Source: Chlorobium sp. (lineage in GTDB: Bacteria > Bacteroidota > Chlorobiia > Chlorobiales > Chlorobiaceae). Taken from it: 64,000 nucleotides of DNA. The position numbers and the translations under genes are program-made. The stretch is taken from NCBI GenBank assembly GCA_005843825.1, contig SZXX01000033.1, positions 1 to 64,000 of the forward strand, read 5' to 3'. Of this stretch, positions 12,499-44,425 are shown one piece after another; the stretch's first letter is position 1; each line of letters begins with the position of its first letter. The notes under the pieces are model-generated. The model did no database searches. It had not been told where the DNA came from and saw only the letters and a program-made list of their open reading frames with translations.

Positions 12499-12610
12499 AA
12501 CTACAAATACCTTCTATAAAACGTATGAACAAATAGAGGATCCCCCATGTAGGTTGGGGTGATTCCTGAACCCCAACAAACCCAAAGTTGTCCTCAGAGG
12601 ATAGCTCTTT

Positions 12611-13492
12611 TCAGCCCTCAGGTAAAGTTTGCCTTCCATCTTTTATCGCACCAATCAATTTTCTGAGCTTTTCGTTGAAAAAACGGGTACTCCATAGCTT
12701 AAGACTGTGTTGCTCTGCAGGAGGCAGAAATGGGGCAACATCTTCGGCCGCATCTGACCAGAATATGCTCTGAATCTTGTTCTGCATAGCTGTATTGAGC
12801 CAATCAGCGTCGATGTTCAGGTGATCTCCGGCCCATGGACCATATTGATACAGTGCATTTTGCAGAAGCAGAAAATTCGGGATAAAGCCTTTGGCAACAT
12901 ACCAGCTGAAATCGAACCAGTCTAGACCCTTTATATAAGGTCGGCACATCAGGGCATGAACCTTGAGAGCAAAATTACTCGACAGATCTTGAGCGCACAG
13001 TTCAAAATCAAGAGGAAAATCAAGGTAGCGATAATCAAATCCGGAACCCTCTGGAGGCAAAGTATCGATTTCCAGATTGACTTTTAATTTGCGTGCGTTA
13101 CTGGTCCCGTAAAATGAGAGATTAAGCTGGCTGCCAATAGAATCATCCTTCAGCATCGCCTGACGAACAGCACGATCCATATGGCCGCGATCAACAAGTT
13201 CACAATGGACACCAAATTCTGCCAACACTTCCCTGAGGGTTTTAAAATAAGGGCTCCAGATAAATTCAGGATCCGGGGTCAGGAGAATGAAATCAAGATC
13301 TTCTGAAAAACGAGACAATCCATGAAGAATGCGCAAACTGGTTCCTCCCTGAAAAGCGGCTACCTCAAAAAAACCAGCCCTCCATAACCCGTAGAGAGTT
13401 ACTTCCTGCAAAATCTCCTTGAGCGCATGCTCTTCGGACGAAGCATCAGCCGCCTTGTATTGTTGAAGGCGCTTCCGCAATAACTCAATCAT
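12611..13492 (-). CDS. AbiEii-type nucleotidyltransferase toxin
   Basis: A 293-residue nucleotidyltransferase of the AbiEii/type IV toxin family. The fold's signature is plain: FQGGTSLRILHGLSRFSEDL at the strand with the catalytic acids (SEDLDF), followed by the long helical C-terminal part typical of the family. Known AbiE toxins arrest growth and can abort phage infection, and some modify tRNA ends; whether this one does is inference. The gene starts 3 bases after the antitoxin gene ends, so the pair is one operon. It is the distal gene, as in other AbiE modules. Nothing suggests inactivation. Confidence 0.88.
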   Translation of the reverse strand: MIELLRKRLQQYKAADASSEEHALKEILQEVTLYGLWRAGFFEVAAFQGGTSLRILHGLSRFSEDLDFILLTPDPEFIWSPYFKTLREVLAEFGVHCELVDRGHMDRAVRQAMLKDDSIGSQLNLSFYGTSNARKLKVNLEIDTLPPEGSGFDYRYLDFPLDFELCAQDLSSNFALKVHALMCRPYIKGLDWFDFSWYVAKGFIPNFLLLQNALYQYGPWAGDHLNIDADWLNTAMQNKIQSIFWSDAAEDVAPFLPPAEQHSLKLWSTRFFNEKLRKLIGAIKDGRQTLPEG

Positions 13493-39305: not shown

Positions 39306-39452
39306 ATGCTTGAAACTATCGCAGTAATCCTGATTGTCCTCTGGCTTTTAGGACTTGTTACCTCATACACGATGGGTGGGCTTATTCATGCCCTTCTGGT
39401 TATCGCAATCGTGGTAATAGTAATCCGTGTTCTTCAGGGCCGAAGTATTTAA
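39306..39452 (+). CDS. Small membrane protein, lmo0937 family
   Basis: A 48-residue membrane protein (MLETIAVILIVLWLLGLVTS and then YTMGGLIHALLVIAIVVIVI, ending RVLQGRSI) with two hydrophobic segments joined by a Gly-rich turn. It matches the lmo0937/DUF5670 family of tiny two-helix proteins, common near stress genes but without known function. AAGGAGAG precedes the ATG at a good distance. It begins a plus-strand cassette of small envelope or stress proteins. Confidence 0.82.
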   Translation: MLETIAVILIVLWLLGLVTSYTMGGLIHALLVIAIVVIVIRVLQGRSI

Positions 39453-39550
39453 CAACACTGAAAGAGTGCCTGGCAGTGCACTCTCCTTCCTCACTGCTCA
39501 AAGATTCACGAGATAAAAACTTACAAACATAGTAACAGGAGAAAGTAATG

Positions 39551-40094
39551 ATGAAAAAAAACTATATGGATAGCAGCAGGAATTACCGGAATGCTTCTTG
39601 GTAATCCTGCCTGTGATGCCAAGGCTGAATTGAATATCAGAATCGGTGCCCGGCCTGAGTTTATCCAATTGAGAAATCTTGGATTTTCAGTAGCCGTAGG
39701 GAGCCCTTACGATATTGTGTACTACGGTAATTTGTACTACCTGAACCAGAACGGTTTATGGTATCGCTCTTCTGACTACCGTGGCCCATGGATGAGTGTC
39801 AGGGAAAGCCAGCTTCCACCAAGTATAAGAAGGCATCGTCTGGATGATATCAGAAGGTTCCGGGATACTGAGTATCGTAGTATCTACAGCACGAGAACTC
39901 TGGAACAGAGGCGCAGTGATGAAAACAACAGAAGACTCCTGGATCAGCAGCGCACTGACGAAAACAACAAGAGAAATCTGGATCAGCAGCGCAGTGATGA
40001 AAACAACAAGAGAATGCTGGATCAGCAACGCACCGACGACAACAACAGAAGACTTCTAGAGCAGCAGCGCAGTGATGAAAACCGTAACCGATAA
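39551..40094 (+). CDS. Secreted repeat protein, frameshifted in a poly-A tract
   Basis: From ATG 39551 the frame runs through eight A (39554-39561) and stops after 16 codons. With seven A it would give MKKTIWIAAGITGMLLGNPA (a signal peptide) continuing in frame into the long frame 39591-40094. A relative at 44222 begins MKKTMLIAIGIAGMFLGTP with seven A. So this gene carries a +1 shift in a homopolymer: a lost gene, phase variation, transcriptional slippage or a sequencing error. The mature part has a compact N-terminal domain (YDIVYYGNLYYLNQNGLWYR) and five 13-residue repeats rich in Asp, Gln, Arg and Asn (LDQQRSDENNKR). AGGAG lies before the ATG pair at 39548. Confidence 0.75.
39900..40091 (+). 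repeat. 39-bp tandem repeat coding for a 13-residue unit
   Basis: Five units at 39900, 39939, 39978, 40017 and 40056 (the last is one codon short). Each encodes L-(D/E)-Q-(Q/R)-R-(S/T)-D-(E/D)-N-N-(K/R)-R-x. Near-identical copies at DNA level suggest recent expansion and copy-number change. Confidence 0.9.
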
Positions 40095-40241: not shown

Positions 40242-40532
40242 ATGAGTGTAAGAGATGCCTATAAAAAGAAAGCAGAGGCAGAAGTGGATCTTGCGCATGC
40301 CCGGCTTGCAGAATTCAAGGCCAACGTTAAGGAGAGTAAAGCAGATGCCCGTATTACCTATGCCAAAGAGGTTGATCATCTAGAAAAAGCTGTTGAAGAT
40401 GCAACAAAGATGTTGAAGGAATTGGGCGAAGCCGGTGAGGATGTCTGGGAGAAACTCAAGGAGGGTGTTGAAGGTGCGTTGCGTTCATTAAGTGCCTCCA
40501 TTAAGGATATCGCTGACAAGATTAAAAATTGA
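40242..40532 (+). CDS. Small amphipathic helical (coiled-coil) stress-type protein
   Basis: A 96-residue, Lys/Glu-rich soluble protein with no signal peptide. It is almost entirely helical, with heptad-like spacing (VDLAHARLAEFKANVKESKA; VDHLEKAVEDATKMLKELGE). Such proteins occur with lmo0937 and CsbD-like genes in stress regions of many bacteria, but no function is established. AAAGGAGA precedes the ATG by 7 bases. It sits between the repeat-protein gene and the sigma-like gene on the same strand. Confidence 0.7.
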   Translation: MSVRDAYKKKAEAEVDLAHARLAEFKANVKESKADARITYAKEVDHLEKAVEDATKMLKELGEAGEDVWEKLKEGVEGALRSLSASIKDIADKIKN

Positions 40533-44218: not shown

Positions 44219-44425
44219 ATGATGAAAAAAACCATGTTGATAGCCATAGGAATTGCCGGAATGTTTTTGGGCACTCCCGTTGCTGATTCTCAAGCCAGTG
44301 TAGGTGTAAATATTAACTTAGGGGGAAGGAGGCATCATCACCGCCATTATTACTACCGCAATGGGCATAGAAGATACCGCCATTCAGGGTTGACAACATC
44401 AGCCACAGCCCTGAAAGTAGTATAA
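44219..44425 (+). CDS. Small secreted His/Tyr/Arg-rich protein
   Basis: A 67- or 68-residue protein with a signal peptide (MKKTMLIAIGIAGMFLGTPV and a probable cut after SQA). The mature part begins SVGVNINLGGRRHHHRHYYY and is strongly basic with many His and Tyr. Such sequences occur in many bacterial envelope proteins of unknown role; metal binding is possible but unproven. The signal peptide is a paralogue of the frameshifted gene at 39551. AGGAG lies before the ATG pair. Confidence 0.7.
   Translation: MMKKTMLIAIGIAGMFLGTPVADSQASVGVNINLGGRRHHHRHYYYRNGHRRYRHSGLTTSATALKVV

Follow-up and report, generated by a model that had tools for sequence, protein, structure and literature searches.

A frameshift in the 5′ poly(A) tract of the Listeria monocytogenes gene inlA is described as leaving a product of eight residues (Orsi et al. 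2010, PMC2831843). The locus analysed here, which lies in a 64,000-nucleotide stretch of Chlorobium DNA (the window), resembles inlA as presented in that account: a one-base change falls in a short 5′ A run of a gene for an exported protein, the frame is lost within a few codons and intact alleles are found elsewhere. The A6/A7 difference in inlA is a known strain polymorphism whose reversion is reported there as measured, whereas the Chlorobium locus comes from one assembly, has A8 where other species have A7 and is known from sequence alone.

A run of eight A with offset frames is also a feature of dnaX, for which programmed transcriptional realignment is described (Antonov et al., PMC3711429; PMC1088944). 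The Chlorobium locus differs from dnaX as set out in these sources in that its offset is unconserved, its break falls at codons 3–5 of a signal peptide, and frame rescue by transcriptional slippage would require the removal of one A or the addition of two.

Among described protein families, the encoded protein belongs to the WXXGXW family (Pfam PF12779), since residues 57–77 of the long reading frame (39732–39794, plus strand) score 26.2 bits against a curated cut-off of 18. It differs from other members of the family in that only one short stretch matches; the signal peptide, the beta domain and the 13-residue helical repeats appear to be genus-specific in our searches.

The offset start and the protein behind it

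Two start codons, ATG at 39548 and ATG at 39551, are preceded by a Shine–Dalgarno-like AGGAG found by pattern match (39537–39541) and run directly into eight A (39554–39561; seven in orthologues), after which the next base is C (all on the plus strand). The frame of the two start codons (39548–39604, plus strand) comprises 18 codons, translates as MMKKNYMDSSRNYRNASW and terminates with TAA at 39602–39604. The initial annotation had described ATG at 39551, the A8 run and an early stop of this frame, and it is correct in both coordinates and description.

One base out of register lies a long frame (39555–40094, plus strand) that carries the rest of the signal peptide, the WXXGXW domain and a series of repeats, and that has its stop codon at 40092–40094. 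It opens at 39555 because TGA at 39552–39554 overlaps the start codon, so that no start codon is available to it upstream of the A run; its first in-frame ATG, at 39591, is situated within the signal peptide. All 176 codons are open, with no second stop or lesion. The offset is not the artefact of a chance open reading frame, since relatives that are in frame can be aligned with the long frame over its whole length.

The core and cleavage region of the signal peptide, IWIAAGITGMLLGNPACDAKA, spans 39564–39626 (plus strand, with the boundary inferred by eye) and is stereotyped in the genus, where the consensus read by eye is MKKxIWLAAGIAGMLLGNP. A repeat search reveals a 39-base tandem repeat of 4.8 copies at 39894–40082 (plus strand), corresponding to 13-residue repeats in a long helix predicted by AlphaFold. 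The model of the long frame has a mean pLDDT of 72, with six strands at residues 32–79 and a helix at residues 93–174. A fold search of the PDB with this model gave no match at E ≤ 0.001 (best 1.6), a sequence search of the PDB with the long-frame protein gave none either, and we therefore assign no function from the predicted structure. An NCBIfam search returned no family for the long-frame protein, and the plasmid records searched contained no match.

The window contains two occurrences of ATGATG followed by A7, where 0.01 would be expected. A comparison gene of 68 amino acids (44219–44425, plus strand) begins with ATGATG and A7 and is in frame. It had been put forward, from its ATG at 44222, as a related gene with seven A in the same place; the run and the frame are as claimed, but the relationship is limited to the signal peptide (identity at 11 of 25 residues), and the gene has no Pfam match. 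It backs the idea of a broken start through its signal peptide only. A near-identical type of signal peptide stands ahead of unrelated mature parts (39555–39626 and 44219–44296 in the window; L285, L306 and others), as if this type were used like a cassette in Chlorobium.

The broken gene belongs to a small block on the plus strand, with a gene for an lmo0937/DUF5670 membrane protein upstream (39306–39452, profile matches) and a gene for an sll1863-family stress response protein downstream (40242–40532, profile match). In the close relative G005, the three-gene block matches a separate contig (C45) with 79% identity; most of the flanking backbone is approximately 92–93% identical to G005 and is found there on C81 and C17. 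The window itself is part of contig C7 (118,033 bases) in an assembly of 57 contigs and 2.55 Mb that is 97.95% complete. Between backbone regions, the window contains a variable stretch (36.5–47.8 kb) that matches only scattered short contigs of G005, and parts of this stretch recur at 91.9–99.5 kb of the same contig. A short element at 12527–12660 of the window recurs in dozens of copies spread over the G005 genome and matches no Rfam family; it looks like a dispersed repeat of the palindromic type.

Family members and constraint

Matches to the family were found in all 37 genomes of the genus that we searched, and a search of 24 genomes outside the genus gave no match. The best-matching relatives are metagenome bins of Chlorobium or Chlorobiaceae, one of them listed under Pelodictyon luteolum. 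The 115 loci that were read represent 114 places (L028 and L114 coincide), of which three (L117, L120 and L170) fall at the edges of contigs or fetched pieces and escape assessment, and a flag raised on L168 proved a false alarm; second domains and short fragments, including one on G005:C98, stand outside the count. In 109 of the 111 assessable places across the 37 genomes, the signal peptide is in frame with the mature part. The two broken places are the window copy, interrupted at its A run, and a G019 copy, which breaks at a G9 run. Family members whose start carries a run of A7 or more number at least 28 (a lower bound, with some members such as L138 and L149 uncounted and L017 counted for its neighbour), and one of these, the window copy, is broken at this run.

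The broken G019 copy (L032, G019:C33, minus strand) has its G9 run just downstream of the signal peptide, whereas the A9 run at its start leaves the frame intact. The family fragment in G005 (G005:C98:3868–4117) consists of pieces that match in two different frames.

ATGATG and A7 are in frame in each of the five genomes that contain the closest relatives (L036, L007/L037, L038, L039 and L048). Conservation of the run and of the frame offset in orthologues, which would mark programmed slippage, is thus absent from these genomes.

We calculated a dN/dS of 0.14 for the long frame against L036 (29 non-synonymous and 41 synonymous differences) and of 0.13–0.14 against L037, L038 and L039. Among these four relatives themselves the values are 0.06–0.11, and the window copy is therefore slightly less constrained. 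Codon changes confined to the window copy, with the four others agreeing, comprise 8 synonymous and 7 non-synonymous changes. Taken with the low dN/dS, they indicate that constraint on the long frame lasted until recently. The extra stops, frameshifts and relaxed constraint of a decayed pseudogene are absent (176 open codons; dN/dS 0.13–0.14), and the locus instead has the attributes of a recent gene loss by a single indel, namely intact relatives, a single lesion and retained constraint. Since A7 keeps the relatives in frame, the long frame is still constrained and a second lesion is absent, we regard the event as recent and not as a conserved recoding signal; on the same grounds, a newly lost gene is the best supported of the alternatives that the initial annotation had offered.

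We consider it probable that a real and recent expansion from A7 to A8 silenced a dispensable WXXGXW paralogue, in principle reversibly. Slipped-strand replication would have added one A to the run just 3′ of the start codon, and the signal peptide and mature domain of the exported repeat protein would thereby have been thrown out of frame. Ribosomes starting at 39548 or 39551 would produce an 18-residue peptide, and the copy would be off, or would yield a trace-level product with no working signal peptide, so that the mature protein would not be exported. The host genome has six family places including the broken copy, and the loss would be tolerated because at least five other family members are present. 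The copy is thus presumably dispensable, and the same kind of slippage could in principle restore it.

Homopolymer runs and other starts in the host assembly

Assemblies err most often in calling single bases of homopolymers, and a sequencing or assembly error at this site would imply a normal gene with A7 in the actual DNA. We regard such an error as unlikely, though it deserves the most weight among the alternatives. In its favour, no other family member shares this frame transition, and singleton frame transitions are attributed in PMC3711429 to indel mutation or sequencing error. Against it stand the long runs of the host genome, which weaken this alternative of the earlier description: of 123 runs of eight or more in 497,645 bases, 87 are unbroken inside frames of at least 100 codons. 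Five flagged runs were inspected by eye and gave no clear break, two being gene boundaries, one an antisense artefact and two adjacent (C50:89321/89330) in one low-complexity stretch.

An alignment of 65,966 bases of C7 to G005 contains 25 non-triplet indels in open reading frames. On inspection by eye these are mutually compensating, near the ends of reading frames or in spurious short ones; a long homopolymer with an evident break is not among them. A systematic homopolymer error is thus unsupported by the unbroken runs, the five flagged runs and the indels between C7 and G005. An error is further disfavoured by other host genes that start with A8 and A10 in frame, for example an RNase H-like gene with A10.

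Across the host genome, ATG is followed by A7 at 63 places, by A8 at 17 and by A9 or more at 5. Applying a mechanical rule, we counted 33 in-frame starts of genes with A7 or more and two broken ones, the window copy and a second gene for an exported protein. At C48:20207 (L207 1501–2224, corresponding to G000:C48:20207–20930), ATG with A9 is offset from the 239-codon frame of a PEP-CTERM protein (P0002); relatives in G005, G016 and G021 start in frame, with runs that are shorter or interrupted. Other candidates for broken starts were rejected. L181 likely uses a later start (MKAKSAPR), L203 is a gene boundary (presumably ftsI/murE), L067 is in frame with an upstream start, and L238, which we take to be rnpA-like, keeps the same arrangement in G005 and G016. 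Loss of mismatch repair through MutS was also rejected, as the frames of 872 and 801 codons each contain an intact MutS_V domain.

We found the pattern AGGAG–ATG–A8 in 31 of 61 genomes, at 53 places in all. Thirty of these places were examined: 28 are in frame, one is internal to another frame and one, the window copy, is broken. Broken starts of this pattern amount to two of three in the host assembly versus none of 28 in relatives (Fisher 0.006, post hoc and with the finding itself included), and the breaks therefore belong to the host assembly or lineage. A mutable lineage, chance and an assembly-specific slip are each compatible with this difference. That a second start (A9) of the same assembly is broken, and that the sampled relatives show none, speaks for an error; the two broken starts out of three could equally mean an assembly-specific error at such sites, which counts against a loss by slippage.

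Switching, frame rescue and significance

Low-frequency on/off switches made of slippage-prone A runs might be kept by Chlorobium in the stereotyped signal peptides of exported stress and surface proteins, with two of them caught OFF in this assembly. We regard this as improbable; the A8 run would then possibly be read through in part by a slipping RNA polymerase. Quite improbable is selected phase variation, in which the 5′ A run would act as a contingency switch of exported proteins and an OFF cell line would have been assembled. Such switching is physically plausible because the A tract is prone to slippage, and 5′ poly(A) tracts of inlA are reported to mutate approximately 1000-fold above point mutations (PMC2831843). 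The length of a simple repeat at the coding start does decide between off and on here (A8 off in the window, A7 on in five relatives), and the A7 run is kept in those five genomes. Two exported-protein genes are OFF at 5′ A runs (at 39551 and, for the PEP-CTERM protein, at C48:20207), as is the G019 family member at its G9 run. However, OFF copies do not recur across the family, with one break at the start run among the 28 or more members and two among all 111 places. None of the 28 other A8 starts in the genus is broken, and a frequently used switch should give more OFF copies; the tracts are also short. Phase variation is hardly discussed in the Chlorobium literature that we searched, where PMC9716671 was the only paper listed as having Chlorobium or phase variation in its abstract.

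Transcriptional slippage on A8, which would restore the frame in part of the mRNA and leave the gene working, is very doubtful. Constraint on the long frame persists, and frame transitions at A8 and A7 in dnaX of two Chlorobium species are listed in PMC3711429, with realignment proposed. The broken arrangement is nevertheless unconserved, many genomes are reported to show evident selection against A/T runs once these reach nine bases (PMC1088944), and E. coli RNA polymerase shows no slippage in the direction of deletion on the poly(A) runs examined in PMC6260861. The transcriptional rescue suggested earlier is thus left without conservation and, for the E. coli enzyme on those runs, without the deletion that would be needed. 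Ribosomal −1 frameshifting at A_AAA_AAC was rejected, as it enters the third frame and meets a stop after EKKLYG.

It is hardly credible that translation begins internally at ATG 39591 and yields a cytoplasmic protein that has taken on a new role. The short frame reaches its stop 11 bases after this ATG, so that reinitiation is possible, and AGGA lies nine bases upstream of the ATG, but the same Met is within the signal peptide of most relatives and is the sole start in none, and the product would be left without the lysines of the basic end and without half of the signal peptide's hydrophobic core.

The probable explanation thus remains a recent loss by slippage, and a gene broken at A8 is an ordinary, well-understood kind of mutation. 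If switching by A runs were true, it would represent phase variation in a free-living phototroph. If the A7 to A8 expansion is real, the locus would provide a clean and recent case in which slippage in a 5′ homopolymer has silenced an exported protein of a free-living green sulfur bacterium.
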